A DNA stretch of 64,000 nt, taken from Actinomycetota bacterium. Its GTDB lineage: Bacteria > Actinomycetota > Aquicultoria > Subteraquimicrobiales > Subteraquimicrobiaceae. How positions within the stretch are numbered: the first letter of the stretch is position 1; every line of letters starts with the position of its first letter. The position numbers and the translations under genes are program-made. The stretch lies in the NCBI GenBank assembly GCA_030018275.1, contig JASEGB010000003.1, positions 73,600-137,599 on the forward strand, written 5' to 3'. The notes beneath the pieces were generated by a model that made no database searches, was not told the DNA's origin, and worked only from the letters and a program-made list of their open reading frames with translations. Shown one piece after another: positions 30,948-60,956 of this stretch.

Positions 30948-31034
30948 TGGTGCCGAGGGAGGGATTCCAACCCTCACGCCCTTACGGGCAGTGGTTTTTG
31001 AGACCACCGCGTATGGCTATTCCGCCACCTCGGC
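30948..31034 (-). tRNA. tRNA-Leu (anticodon CAA)
   Basis: A class II tRNA of 87 bases with an encoded CCA end. The acceptor stem is GCCGAGG with CCTCGGC; the anticodon stem GTGGT/ACCAC encloses the loop CTCAAAA, giving anticodon CAA for UUG codons. The long variable arm (TGCCCGTAAGGGCG) and T arm (GAGGGTTGGAATCCCTC) are standard for tRNA-Leu. Confidence 0.95.
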
Positions 31035-33369: not shown

Positions 33370-34353
33370 ATGGATCCAGAGGTTGAGAGGAAAATCGTCA
33401 CGATTCTTAGGATATTGAGCAAGGAAAAGGAACCCCTTGGAGCAAGTTTAATCTCACGTCGCCTCCGGGATTTTGGTATTAACCTAAGCGAAAGGGCGGT
33501 CAGGTACCACCTTAAGATCATGGATGAGAGGGGTTTAACCCAAGGGTTCGGAAAGCGGGGACGTGTAATCACAAAAAAGGGTTTAACTGAATTAAGGGAT
33601 GCACTGGTCTCCGATAAGGTTGGTTTGATAATTTCAAAAATAGACGCGCTTTCCTGCCGTACCACTTTAAATCCGGAGGAAAAAAGGGGGCGAATCATTT
33701 TAAACATTTCGTTTATACCGGAAAAAGATTTCCGTACTGCCCTAAGGGAAATGCGAGATATTTTCAAGATGAGGCTATGTATGAGTGATCTTGTGGTGGT
33801 GGCCTCCAAGGGAGAAGTTTTGGGGGATGTTGAAATCCCTCCAGGTAAAATTGGTTTCGGCACGGTGTGTAGCATCACTTTGAATGGGGTTTTAGTTAAT
33901 GCGGGAATTCCCGTTTATTCTAAATTTGGTGGGATTTTACAGATGGATGATTTCAAACCGGTAAGATTTACAGAACTCATAACATATGAGGGTACTTCCT
34001 TAGATCCCTTGGAAATCTTCATAAAAAGTAAGATGACGAGCGTGAGGGAGGTAGCAAAAACTGGAAGGGGAAAAATGTTGGCCAGTTTCCGGGAAATCCC
34101 TGCAGTTGCTCTTGAGGCTGTGAGGAAGATGATCGAGAAATTAGAGGAAATAAACCTTTATGGTGTGCTCGCCGTGGGTGAGCCAAGTCAACCCGTTTTG
34201 GAGATGTCCGTCGGTGTAGATCGAGTGGGAATGGTCGTAGTTGGGGGATTAAATCCACTGGCTGCACTGGAAGAAATGGGCATTGAAACCCAAAGTAAAG
34301 CCATGAGTACGATGATAGATTTTGAGGAACTCAGAAGCTTCTGGGAGCTTTAA
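33370..34353 (+). CDS. NrpR-type nitrogen regulator (winged helix plus DUF128)
   Basis: A 327-residue protein. Residues 1-75 form a winged-helix domain (ERKIVTILRILSKEKEPLGA, RAVRYHLKIMDERGLT); the rest is one NrpR/DUF128 domain with GFGTVCSITLNGVLVNAGIP and YSKFGGILQ. In methanogens NrpR represses nitrogen assimilation genes and is released by 2-oxoglutarate. Archaeal forms have one or two DUF128 domains; this has one. Its neighbours are glnA, a glutamate synthase remnant and an FMN glutamate-synthase-like gene, so nitrogen control is likely. The long leader holds candidate operators. Confidence 0.85.
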   Translation: MDPEVERKIVTILRILSKEKEPLGASLISRRLRDFGINLSERAVRYHLKIMDERGLTQGFGKRGRVITKKGLTELRDALVSDKVGLIISKIDALSCRTTLNPEEKRGRIILNISFIPEKDFRTALREMRDIFKMRLCMSDLVVVASKGEVLGDVEIPPGKIGFGTVCSITLNGVLVNAGIPVYSKFGGILQMDDFKPVRFTELITYEGTSLDPLEIFIKSKMTSVREVAKTGRGKMLASFREIPAVALEAVRKMIEKLEEINLYGVLAVGEPSQPVLEMSVGVDRVGMVVVGGLNPLAALEEMGIETQSKAMSTMIDFEELRSFWEL

Positions 34354-34365
34354 ATAACCCACCCT

Positions 34366-34612
34366 TGTAATGTTTTACGTACATTGGTAACACTTATATT
34401 GTTTGGGGCATCCTTCCGAGTGCTAGCTGCTGCGAGCCTACTCGCTGCTCTCTTAAGGGCAACACCCTCCATAAGTTCGGGTCGGGCTGTTGCCGCCGCT
34501 GTTCGAGCCTTGCTCGCTTAACGGTTCTCTTAAGATGCACTCTCCAGGATACCCGTCCGACAAAAATGTGAGGTTAATCTCAGATAATAATTTACTGTGA
34601 ACCGTGAACGGT
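34366..34612. repeat. Structured element of about 250 bp, copy 1
   Basis: Matches 59778-60019 over its whole length. It begins TGTAATGTTTTACGTACATT, contains GCATCCTTCCGAGTGCTAGC, hairpin GCGAG-CCTA-CTCGC, the word TTCTCTTAAG in two tandem settings, hairpin CGAGC-CTT-GCTCG, and ends near ACTGTGAACCGTGAAC. No open frame is kept. It fills most of the gap between the nrpR-like gene and the FMN oxidoreductase gene. Confidence 0.85.
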
Positions 34613-34730
34613 GAATGGTGAGCTAGGGAGAGCAACCAATGTCTGCTATTAATACACATAGTTTTAAGGGGGTGAGTAAAAAGTTTTTAACCGGAAGGGA
34701 AATCCCATGGAATATGAAAGGGGGTAAAAG

Positions 34731-36296
34731 ATGTCTTTAAGTAGACCGAATGCAAGTGCTGCGACTATAACCACGACTAGGGTTACGCCTTCACCCATTT
34801 CTGGACTGTGTGTAGCCTGTGTGGATGGTTGTCCGGGCTATTGCGAAGTAGGAAGATCCGCCGTTAGGGGGAGGGAAATTATCTATCCGCACCCATTTGG
34901 AAAGGTCATCGCTGGAGCGGAGAAAGATTATCCCGTCGATTTTTCTCACTTCAATATCCAGGGGAGCTGCGTCGGGGCTGCGGGTATCGAGGCGGATCCG
35001 GATAAAGCCATTTTCCCTGCTGTAGATGTCTCCACCGAAATTGGCGCCCGGGGAAGAAAGATGAAGATGAAAGTCCCCTTCTTCACCGGTGCTTTGGGTT
35101 CAACCGATGTAGCCAGGGTGAACTGGGAAGGCGCCGCCATCGCCGTTGCCATATGTGGAGCCGTACTCATCTGTGGAGAGAATGTTTGTGGCATGGATCC
35201 CGATGCTGAGTTCAAAAATGGGAAAGTGGTAAGATCTCCAGAACTCGAAAGAAGGGTGAAGATATACAAGGAATGGTATGAGGGCTATGGGACCATGCTC
35301 GTTCAAGCAAATGTAGAGGACACTCGCCTTGGTGTTCCCGAGTATGCGGTGGAGAAGCTCGGAGTCGAGGGAATCGAGATAAAGTGGGGGCAAGGAGCTA
35401 AATCCATCGGTGGAGAAGTTAAGCTGCCCACTCTGGAAAGAGCTCTTGAGCTTAAGCAAAGAGGATATATCGTTATTCCCGACCCCAATGATTCCGCGGT
35501 TCAAGAGGCTTATAAAGCGGGAGGAGTACGAGAATTCGAAAGGCACTCCCGCCTGGGAATGGTGGACGAAGAGTCCTTTTTGAAGGAAGTGGAAAGGCTA
35601 AAGAATATAGGCGCTAAGTACGTTACCCTCAAAACGGGCGCCTATAGACCCGCGGATTTAGCGCGGGCGGTGAAATTCGCCTCCGAAGCAAAAATAGACC
35701 TTCTAACCGTGGACGGCGCGGGTGGCGGAACCGGAATGAGTCCATGGGTGATGATGAACGAGTGGGGAATCCCCACGGTTTATCTGGAGAGCCTTCTTTA
35801 CAAATTCCTGAAGAGGATCGAGGAGAAGGGAGCATTTGTTCCCAGCTGTGCTATAGCTGGGGGAATTGTCCTTGAGGATCAGATTTTTAAAGCCATCGCC
35901 TTGGGAGCTCCTTATATAAAGGCGGTGTGCATGGGTCGGGGTACCCTCACCGCGGCGATGGTGGGGAAGACCCAAGGGCAGCTCCTCGAAGAAACTTACG
36001 GGAAAGGTAAGGAATATCAAGAAGCGCTTCTCCGCACATTCATCGGGGCGGTGCAACTTAAGGAAAAATATGGAGAAGATTTTAAGAGGATGCCACCGGC
36101 GGCAATAGCCGTCTATACCTACTATGACAGGATTGCCACTGGTCTTAAGCAGCTCATGGCCGGGGCTCGTAAATTCGCCCTCAACTTAATAGACCGAAAT
36201 GACCTCTTCGCTCTAACGCGAGAAGCGGCGGAGCTTTCCGGGATCACCTATATAATGGAATCGGATATGGAAGAGGCGGAAAGGATTTTGGGATAA
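34731..36296 (+). CDS. FMN-binding glutamate-synthase-like oxidoreductase
   Basis: A 521-residue protein of the FMN/synthase (GltS alpha-like) barrel family. The barrel segments are recognisable: IKWGQGAKSIGGEV, YVTLKTGAYRPADLARA, LTVDGAGGGTGMSPWVMMNEWGIP and CAIAGGIVLEDQIFKA. Two points set it apart from glutamate synthase. The segment after the barrel, VCMGRGTLTAAMVGK, lacks the three-cysteine [3Fe-4S] motif ending in CPVGI. An N-terminal C27-xx-C30-xxx-C34-xxx-C38 cluster (LCVACVDGCPGYCEVG) is present instead. No amidotransferase domain is attached. The substrate is unknown. A ferredoxin and NuoE/NuoF follow at short distance. Confidence 0.8.
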   Translation: MSLSRPNASAATITTTRVTPSPISGLCVACVDGCPGYCEVGRSAVRGREIIYPHPFGKVIAGAEKDYPVDFSHFNIQGSCVGAAGIEADPDKAIFPAVDVSTEIGARGRKMKMKVPFFTGALGSTDVARVNWEGAAIAVAICGAVLICGENVCGMDPDAEFKNGKVVRSPELERRVKIYKEWYEGYGTMLVQANVEDTRLGVPEYAVEKLGVEGIEIKWGQGAKSIGGEVKLPTLERALELKQRGYIVIPDPNDSAVQEAYKAGGVREFERHSRLGMVDEESFLKEVERLKNIGAKYVTLKTGAYRPADLARAVKFASEAKIDLLTVDGAGGGTGMSPWVMMNEWGIPTVYLESLLYKFLKRIEEKGAFVPSCAIAGGIVLEDQIFKAIALGAPYIKAVCMGRGTLTAAMVGKTQGQLLEETYGKGKEYQEALLRTFIGAVQLKEKYGEDFKRMPPAAIAVYTYYDRIATGLKQLMAGARKFALNLIDRNDLFALTREAAELSGITYIMESDMEEAERILG

Positions 36297-58877: not shown

Positions 58878-59756
58878 GTGCAGAACTTAGAGTTTACCTT
58901 AATCACAGGTCTATCCGGAGCGGGAAAGTCGGAAGCTATCAGATGTTTCGAGGATATGGGTTACTTTTGCATTGATAATCTACCTCCCACCCTTATCCCC
59001 AAGCTAGCTGAACTGTGCTCTCTTCCCGGTAGCAAAGTGCGTAAAGTGGCTCTGGTGAGCGATGTGAGAGGTGGGGAATTTTTTGATGCTCTTTTCGAAG
59101 CGCTCAGGGAGCTGAAGGGGAGGAACATCAAATATCAAATCCTCTTCCTCGAGGCTTCCGATGAGGAATTGGTGAAGCGTTTTAAGGAAACCCGCCGCAG
59201 GCACCCTCTGGCTGGTGAGGGGCAGATAATAGAAGGTATACACCGAGAACGCCATCTTCTGGAAACCCTTCGAGGCACTGCGGATATGATCATAGATACC
59301 ACAGATTTGGAGACACACGAGCTCAGGGATAAAATTCGCTCATCTTTCCTAGGGGAGCAAAAGCGAAAGGGCATACTCATTACCGTGATATCCTTCGGTT
59401 ACAAATATGGAGTACCGCTTGATGCCGATCTGGTCATGGATGTGAGGTTTTTGCCAAATCCACATTATATCCAATCACTTCGTTCCAGAAATGGTGAGGA
59501 TAAGGAGGTAAGGGAGTTTGTTCTCAATCGCCCAGAGACTCAAACTTTCCTCAAAAAATTTCGGAGTCTCTTGGTTTTCCTTCTTCCGCATTATGTGACC
59601 GAGGGGAAAACTCATCTCACCATAGCCATCGGTTGCACGGGGGGAACCCACAGGTCGGTCACCTTAGCTGACGAGATAGGAGAGTTTCTGAGGGAACAAG
59701 ACTACAATGTAATCGTGAGACACAGGGATATCGGAAGGAATTTCAAATTTCCCTAA
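58878..59756 (+). CDS. rapZ: RNase adapter / nucleotide-binding protein RapZ
   Basis: A 292-residue P-loop protein of the RapZ/YvcJ family, which in model bacteria binds nucleotides and (in enterobacteria) small RNAs. Walker A GLSGAGKSEAIRCFEDMGYFC IDNLPP region at the N-terminus, then LEASDEELVKRFKETRRRHPL, SFGYKYGVPLDADLVMDVRFLPNP and AIGCTGGTHRSV. GTG start after AGAGGTTGGGAA. In most Gram-positives it is followed by yvcK and whiA; here yvcK is absent and a repeat lies between rapZ and whiA. Confidence 0.94.
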   Translation: MQNLEFTLITGLSGAGKSEAIRCFEDMGYFCIDNLPPTLIPKLAELCSLPGSKVRKVALVSDVRGGEFFDALFEALRELKGRNIKYQILFLEASDEELVKRFKETRRRHPLAGEGQIIEGIHRERHLLETLRGTADMIIDTTDLETHELRDKIRSSFLGEQKRKGILITVISFGYKYGVPLDADLVMDVRFLPNPHYIQSLRSRNGEDKEVREFVLNRPETQTFLKKFRSLLVFLLPHYVTEGKTHLTIAIGCTGGTHRSVTLADEIGEFLREQDYNVIVRHRDIGRNFKFP

Positions 59757-59777: not shown

Positions 59778-60019
59778 TGTAATGTTTACGCACACACTTA
59801 TATATTGTTCAGAGGCATCCTTCCGAGTGCTAGCTGCTGCGAGCCTACTCGCTGTTCTCTTAAGGGCGAACACCCTCCATAAGTTCGGGTCGGGCTGTTG
59901 CCGCCGCTGTTCCCGTACGGGCTTAACGGTTCTCTTAAGATGCACTCTCCAGGATACCCCGTCCCATAAGAATATGAGCTTAATCTCGATATAATTACTG
60001 TGAACCATGAACTGTGAAC
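59778..60019. repeat. Structured element of about 250 bp, copy 2
   Basis: Second copy of the element at 34366-34612. Shared landmarks in the same order: TGTAATGTTTACG, GCATCCTTCCGAGTGCTAGC, GCGAG-CCTA-CTCGC, CCATAAGTTCGGGTCGGGC, TTCTCTTAAGATGCACTCTC and ACTGTGAACCATGAAC. The variable hairpin reads CCCG-TA-CGGG here instead of CGAGC-CTT-GCTCG. It occupies the position where yvcK would be expected. Confidence 0.85.
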
Positions 60020-60023
60020 TAAA

Positions 60024-60956
60024 ATGTCTTTTTCAACTCAGGTTAAAAACGAATTAGCCAGGCTACAGCCGAATAAAAGGTGCTGCCAAAGGGCGGAGCT
60101 TTCAGCCATTTTGCGGATGGATGGCTCCTTTCATATCCGAAATGGTGCTTTCGCCTTTCACACGTTAACGGAGAATGCAGCTGTAGCCAGAAAAACCCTG
60201 AAACTCTTTTCAAGCTTATCCGATATTAAATTGCGACTCGAGGTCAAACGGTCCATATTTCAGAAAGCAAACGATTACATCCTTTTCATACCTCCTCAAC
60301 CTGAACTCTATAGGATTCTCATGGATTTAGAGATACTCAATGCTGATAGGCAAATAATCTACGGAATTGTCACTGAGCTGGTAAGACGAAGTTGTTGCGC
60401 CATAACTTACTTGAGGGGTGCTTTTTTGGGGGGAGGATTTATCAACGACCCAAGGAAGAAATATCACTTTGAACTTACGACGGATGATTCTCAGTTCGCT
60501 CTCGATTTGAAGGATTTGCTGGAGAGATTTGAGATTAATGCCAAAATTTTCCAGAAAAGAAAATATGTTATTTATCTTAAGGAGGCTGAGCAGATCCTTC
60601 GGTTTTTAGCACTGGTAGGGGCATTCAATGCCGTTCTCAAGTGGGAAGATATTCGGATTCTTAAAGAGATGAGGAATCAAGTCAATCGTTTGGTGAATTG
60701 CGATACCGCTAATTTGAATAAGGTTGTGGAGGCAACACTCACGCAGATAAGCGATATCACCTTGATAGAAGAGGAGGTGAGCTTGTACTCGTTGTCTAAA
60801 GGTCTTCGAGAGGTTGCACAGGCCCGGATCCAATTTCCTTACGTATCCTTAAGGGAGTTGGGAGAGCTGTGCAACCCACCACTGAGTAAGTCAGCGGTTT
60901 ATCATAGGATGAGACGCCTCAACCAGATAGCTAAGAACCTTAGGGAAGGTAAATAG
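60024..60956 (+). CDS. whiA: Sporulation/cell-division regulator WhiA
   Basis: DNA-binding protein of 310 residues with the N-terminal degenerate LAGLIDADG fold (QVKNELARLQPNKRCC, ELSAILRMDGSF, CAITYLRGAFLGGGFI, FELTTDDSQFALDL) and a C-terminal helix-turn-helix (YVSLRELGELCNPPLSKSAVYHRMRRL). Found in Actinobacteria, Firmicutes and a few relatives; an ATG at 60024 follows the 250-bp element. In Streptomyces it controls sporulation septation, elsewhere cell division; its role here is inferred from family only. Confidence 0.95.
   Translation: MSFSTQVKNELARLQPNKRCCQRAELSAILRMDGSFHIRNGAFAFHTLTENAAVARKTLKLFSSLSDIKLRLEVKRSIFQKANDYILFIPPQPELYRILMDLEILNADRQIIYGIVTELVRRSCCAITYLRGAFLGGGFINDPRKKYHFELTTDDSQFALDLKDLLERFEINAKIFQKRKYVIYLKEAEQILRFLALVGAFNAVLKWEDIRILKEMRNQVNRLVNCDTANLNKVVEATLTQISDITLIEEEVSLYSLSKGLREVAQARIQFPYVSLRELGELCNPPLSKSAVYHRMRRLNQIAKNLREGK

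Follow-up and report, generated by a model that had tools for sequence, protein, structure and literature searches.

Introduction

BOX elements of Streptococcus pneumoniae and S. suis are small, intergenic, non-autonomous modular repeats that would be highly structured if transcribed, and the proposed mover is an insertion sequence (IS) with matching ends (PMC3049150). In S. suis, the same inner BOX modules were found between two different end pairs (PMC3049150). The element described here is alike in these respects, including a common core between two end pairs, but the likeness drawn here is one of organization; BOX varies in the number of boxB modules, whereas here unrelated palindromes replace the hairpin tips. 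The REP/REPIN and RAYT systems (PMC3733652, PMC3116915) also combine small hairpin repeats with transposases, and Y1 transposases are present in this genus; however, no palindrome of the set described here lies beside the 12 Y1 genes examined. Rickettsia palindromic elements (RPEs, reviewed in PMC10969869) place palindromic DNA in frame inside conserved genes, as is also seen here, but RPEs are about 150 bp long and the units here about 10–45 bp, and here one site holds different palindromes in different species. Template-switch hairpin evolution (PMC8794818) likewise explains multi-base changes that preserve pairing without stepwise compensation, although it does not alone carry the same unrelated palindrome to many loci. 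The IS481 family (NF033577) is linked to the element through a relic that has the element's ends and encodes an IS481-like N-terminus; the elements themselves, unlike an IS, encode nothing, and the relic protein has 80 aa.

Location and structure of the two copies

The window, meaning the whole stretch of 64,000 nucleotides that was analyzed, contains two collinear copies of the element, at 34366 and 59778 as originally predicted. Copy 2 was 87% identical to copy 1 over a 250-bp alignment. The predicted start of copy 1 was retained, but its end was moved from 34612 to 34656 on the basis of the terminal inverted repeats. One core word of 18 bases has exactly two instances in the window, where 0.04 would be expected. 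The features are as follows; rapZ and whiA were identified with NCBIfam.

33370–34353: ORF upstream of copy 1, winged-helix-like as read by eye, no NCBIfam match
34366–34656, + strand: copy 1, complete type-1 element (TGTAATG...AATACA) with inverted ends, about 290 bp
34366–34394, + strand: left terminal inverted repeat of copy 1; similarity to the IS481-type relic extends to about 34420
34409–34423, + strand: left arm of base stem P2 (CATCCTTCCGAGTGC), pairing over 19 copies
34432–34445, + strand: hairpin tip H1 (GCGAG-CCTA-CTCGC); GCCCGTACGGGC or GCCCCGACNNGTCGGGGC in other copies
34457–34494, + strand: arm S3 (GGGCAAC...GTTGCC); its tip is CCCGTACGGG in several congener copies
34498–34503 and 34520–34525, + strand: GCTGTT/AACGGT base under H2, nearly invariant
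34504–34516, + strand: hairpin tip H2 (CGAGC-CTT-GCTCG), the segment predicted to be variable
34537–34551, + strand: right arm of base stem P2 (GCACTCTCCAGGATA)
34628–34656, + strand: right terminal inverted repeat of copy 1, reverse complement of the TGTATTAATCGCAGACATTGGTTACACT type
34731–36296: large ORF after copy 1, glutamate synthase-like as read by eye, no NCBIfam match
59778–60019, + strand: copy 2, right end lost, between rapZ (58878–59756) and whiA (60024–60956)
59839–59852, + strand: H1 of copy 2, the same hairpin as in copy 1
59912–59921, + strand: H2 of copy 2 (CCCG-TA-CGGG), palindrome CCCGTACGGG in place of the copy-1 hairpin

The variable H2 segment and the H1 stem common to both copies were thus found as predicted. 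The word TTCTCTTAAG, said to be repeated within each copy, occurs twice and exactly in copy 2, while the first instance in copy 1 is GCTCTCTTAAG. Elsewhere in the window there are a T-box leader at 1476–1734 (Rfam RF00230, 126 bits) and a tRNA gene on the minus strand at 30951–31034 (Rfam RF00005).

The core structure was examined in an alignment of 19 full cores (A2). The inner six pairs of P2 were paired in 100% of the copies and H1 in 98.9% of the cells, and three pairs in each of these stems were changed on both sides. RNAalifold added arm S3 and the base below H2, and the H2 pairs shift column register because the H2 hairpins vary in length. The covariation score was 0.211, compared with 0.097 for shuffled and at most 0.122 for slid alignments; with related copies, the shuffle control makes a score look more significant than it is. 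In RNA folding against dinucleotide shuffles, copy 1 reached z = −2.64 and copy 2 z = −0.42, the latter no better than the shuffles. The TTCTCTTAAG repeats would pair as a further helix (P3) in copy 1; this helix was rejected as a conserved one at 72% pairing, with three pairs unpaired in 10–11 of the 19 copies. An attC-like reading of the GTT/AAC motifs was dropped because the two core sites did not fit. Rfam gave no match for the element at the gathering score or at E ≤ 1.

Distribution of the repeat family

Three congeneric genomes (G000, G001 and G002) were compared, of which G001 and G002 are the two congeners of the window's genome. The latter comprises 1.49 Mb in 38 contigs, and the three drafts range from 38 to about 160 contigs. 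The element had been described as one in two copies; however, blastn gave 44 matches in its own genome, made up of full copies, short copies and end pieces, and 16 and 17 in the congeners. No shared reading frame was seen among the copies, in agreement with the original prediction, and the elements encode nothing.

Outside the genus, another family of the order had a few copies, in two genomes; comparable matches were lacking in the rest of the class Aquicultoria, where the repeat family is essentially absent. The core was present in records of Candidatus Subteraquimicrobium carltonvillense (class Aquicultoria, Actinomycetota), and by this kinship the window's genome is taken to be of the Candidatus Subteraquimicrobium type, a subsurface-type bacterium. 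Over 189 bases, copies L033 and L034, from the other family of the order, were 93% identical to the window copy. Some copies of the window's genus are less similar to it, a hint of horizontal movement. A phage or virus origin was set aside as the exact type-1 left end was not found in IMG/VR, where one 19-base core match was obtained. Similar cores were seen in L036 (G033) and in L051 and L054 (G019). Another repeat (AATTTGCCGCAGCT.TTCGA..CTCGCTTAACGGTCGGCTGC) has its H2 context in common with the element (L140, L142, L129, L203, L204, L207 and L213).

Mobility and inverted ends

Orthologous regions were located with 100-bp flank probes in fragmented drafts, in which repeats can be chimeric. 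Copy 1 was absent from the orthologous site in both congeners, where the flanks were 90–97% identical. Copy 2 was absent from G001, and a rudimentary piece was present at the site in G002. Six further copies (L004, L006, L008, L013, L015 and L017) had empty sites in congeners wherever the orthologue was found; most of the flank probes there were 87–100% identical, and L017 was the cleanest case.

In the relic L288 of G001, the two type-1 ends enclose the N-terminal part of an IS481-like transposase, after which stops follow. In a 65-column alignment, its left end had 54 identities to a window copy and 53 to L004, and at its right end 27 of the first 29 positions matched L004. The best model for its 80-aa protein was NF033577 (IS481, 4.4e-16), a partial match far below the family cut-off, and annotated IS481 homologues with 41–42% identity to the fragment occur in Actinomycetota plasmids. 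We take the TGT...ACA form of the type-1 ends to fit IS481 as well. L288 is itself internally deleted, and internal deletion is the usual first step towards a MITE. It was the only candidate, as no intact autonomous IS with type-1 ends was found in 36 genomes of the class or in IMG/VR. An 864-bp pair of type-1-like ends in G001 (L287) was rejected because it encloses what appears to be part of an ordinary gene and not a transposase.

The core also lies between a second, unrelated pair of ends (type 2). Most type-2 copies had nearly perfect duplications of about 10 bp (9–12 bp) at their two sides, such as AACAGGGATT and AATTATACCT. No clean target duplication was found for type-1 copies, the type of both window copies; a 6-mer test gave 3.76 versus 3.10 for shuffles, a value reached by 2 of 2000 shuffles, although several ends in the test had been called wrongly and the value may be inflated by heptad-like flanks. 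Many copies lie in short near-heptad repeats (AGGTTCTAGGTT, GGTAGTAGGTAG), as in the flanks of L005, L015, L039 and L121, and these repeats are missing from some empty sites. L231 and L227 in G001 occupy the same sites as L011 and L012 with similar type-2 ends and a wholly different AT-rich interior.

The element is thus short, non-coding and present in many copies, has inverted ends in common with an IS, and is present or absent at orthologous sites, as a MITE is. A non-autonomous mobile element was among the explanations first offered, and it gained support from the inverted ends, the empty sites, the IS481-type relative with the same ends, and the duplications of about 10 bp in the sister type.

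Replacement of hairpin tips

The tips come from a recurrent pool that includes CGAGCC..CTCG, CCCGTACGGG and CCCCGACNNGTCGGGG. The H1 slot is occupied by CGAGCCTACTCG, CCCGTACGGG or CCCCGACNNGTCGGGG and the H2 slot by CGAGCCTTGCTCG, CCCGTACGGG or CCCCGACNNGTCGGGG, with a few point variants, and the swapped hairpins are typical of the species. At the nusG/rplK site, the copies of G000 and G001 were identical outside the block at 66 of 66 positions on the left and 124 of 127 on the right (190 of 193), and to the left and right of it they have private variants in common, which no other DNA in the comparison contained. In one of the two species, H1, the S3 tip and H2 are all CCCGTACGGG. Common private variants combined with differing tips indicate replacement in place after a single insertion. 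In a second orthologous pair, L005 and L039, both H1 and H2 differ.

Hairpin tips are therefore replaced in place as blocks and not by base-by-base covariation. Compensatory change had been predicted for the variable stem; the outcome was as predicted, since H1, H2 and the base stem stay paired, but the process was not, as a whole hairpin is replaced by another recurrent palindrome. Short copies have one hairpin where long copies extend from H1 to H2, and these look like deletions between the two palindromes; one of them, L117, contains the chimeric hairpin CCCGTACGAGTCGGGG. Further palindrome insertions were found within MITE copies L119, L124 and L055.

Palindromes outside the element

A search of 36 genomes of the class gave 11, 21, 7 and 9 sites of CCCCGACNNGTCGGGG in G000, G001, G002 and G003, respectively; elsewhere it was found only in G015 and G017, and the reversed-pattern control gave 0 sites. 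Some palindrome sites outside the element fall in reading frames. An sbcC-like gene (partial TIGR00618 match; AAA_23/SMC_N in Pfam) contains, in frame at one position, CCCCGACTTGTCGGGG in G001, CTGAAGGTTCGTCCTTCAG in G000 and CCCCGACGAGGTCGGGG in G002 (L327, L208 and L328), and this swap sits in unique sequence. A second gene has altered yet paired hairpin tips. In G000 only, the gene for ribosomal protein L25 is extended by an in-frame insertion of 42 bp that contains a palindrome (L201 versus L322 and L323). In other bacteria, the sbcC product cuts hairpin DNA; the occurrence of a swap in the sbcC-like gene itself may be a coincidence due to chance. CCCCGACTTGTCGGGG also occurs near the 3' end of an apparent 16S rRNA gene (L199 and L217), probably at the tip of the penultimate long helix.

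No homology to the MITE flanked the sbcC-like and L25 sites in the alignments made. Gene conversion depends on homology in the flanks, so that the coding swaps, including that in the sbcC-like gene, would be left unexplained by conversion between MITE copies. Y1-type transposases gave 3 matches in G000 and no match in G002, which does carry the palindrome. Palindromes were found beside Y1 genes at 0 of 12 loci examined in three genomes, and a REP/RAYT link was rejected, as Y1 genes are present but not adjacent to palindromes.

Orientation relative to neighboring genes

The element was in sense orientation at 27 of 33 tandem intergenic sites (two-sided binomial, 3e-4). Orientation was taken from mechanical ORF calls around the sites, of which a few may be wrong, and L002 was reassigned by eye to nusG/rplK. 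In the window's own genome, most copies are no more than about 70 nt away from the following ORF. Counter-selection of antisense copies, a preference at insertion or a role within the transcript could each account for the bias, and an RNA-level or cis effect on co-transcribed genes is possible given the 27 sense sites. However, three of four scorable minimal type-2 sites that have no core were also sense, so the bias may reflect insertion and not function. No promoter or terminator pattern was found in copy 1, and a TATAAT-like promoter in the right module was rejected, as copy 1 gave no consensus hit.

Discussion

We consider it probable, at roughly 0.7, that the repeat is a non-autonomous MITE-type mobile DNA element whose tips are exchanged as blocks from a pool of palindromes. 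The type-1 ends (TGTAATGTTTACGCACATTGGTAACAC...) would be those of an IS481-family IS, the presumed mover. Between them lies a composite core, in which the base stem P2 would bear the arms H1, S3 and H2. The observed mosaics show the core in both end sets, between which it was presumably passed. Tips would be swapped with a small pool of palindromes that also occurs at other sites of the genus, as is seen at orthologous sites, and inside the element this would take place by copying from dispersed copies through homologous recombination (ectopic gene conversion). Short copies would then arise by deletion between the H1 and H2 palindromes. Pairing would survive because each donor is a hairpin itself, and selection may in addition act on the pairing, at the level of DNA or of RNA. 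The strong sense bias counts against this explanation, as it is unexpected for a purely selfish element that inserts at random, and everything compared here comes from three congeners and from draft assemblies.

The sense bias and the nearness to ORFs would be expected if the element had been retained in operon leaders as an RNA acting in cis, for processing, stability or attenuation, with selection on the folded transcript keeping the arms while any hairpin serves as tip. The nearly complete pairing of P2 and H1 and the covariation score also fit such a role. We nevertheless regard it as unlikely: orthologous leaders in the congeners have no element, helix P3 fails, short copies do without the arms, copy 2 folds no better than its shuffles, Rfam gives no match, copy 1 has no promoter or terminator pattern, and coreless type-2 sites are mostly sense too. 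A housekeeping non-coding RNA, covered by the original suggestion of an RNA, is likewise disfavored by the absence of the element from orthologous sites and from Rfam. The hairpin differences might also be chimeras of short-read repeat assembly, as the three genomes are fragmented drafts. This is highly improbable, given that the sbcC-like swap sits in unique sequence, that the swapped hairpins are species-typical and that private variants persist on both sides of the swapped block.

The palindromes in coding genes bear on two further explanations. Hairpin-specific mutation, by template switching or by tip cleavage and repair, may replace tips throughout the genome in the absence of flanking homology, with the element as one substrate. 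Three in-frame hairpins at one sbcC-like position in three species and the second gene with altered, paired tips speak for this, and template switching is reported as a way in which hairpins arise and are kept (PMC8794818). We hold it to be possible but doubtful, as there are few cases beyond the element, a donor would be required for local template switching to carry one unrelated palindrome to many loci, and independent gain and loss of small palindromes could yield the same pattern. The small palindromes may instead be mobile units themselves, resembling REP or the Rickettsia palindromes, that insert into or beside existing hairpins. The L25 insertion, the extra palindromes in three MITE copies and the Y1-type transposases of G000 are consistent with this possible but equally doubtful reading; against it, none of the examined Y1 loci is flanked by palindromes, G002 has the palindrome and no Y1 match, and at H1 and H2 the old hairpin is replaced and not interrupted.

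Under the preferred reading of a MITE-type element with exchanged tips, the kind of element is already known, and it is the hairpin turnover that is of interest. The element further offers a clear example of two unrelated transposon end sets that enclose the same structured core. Covariation is the standard proof of functional RNA structure. In this mobile element, blocks are replaced whole, so that both sides of a paired stem change and stepwise compensation is not seen. Such changes could mislead a test for covariation, whose score here was about twice that of the shuffled control. With orthologous pairs from close species, hairpin replacement can be tested directly. We suggest, as a speculation that we think rather less than probable, that in this lineage whole hairpins are replaced by other hairpins through a dedicated or unusually active process. 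It would affect mobile repeats as well as protein-coding genes, and would be quick enough to act between species with flanks mostly 92–99% identical. The paired structure would then be inherited, while its sequence would not.
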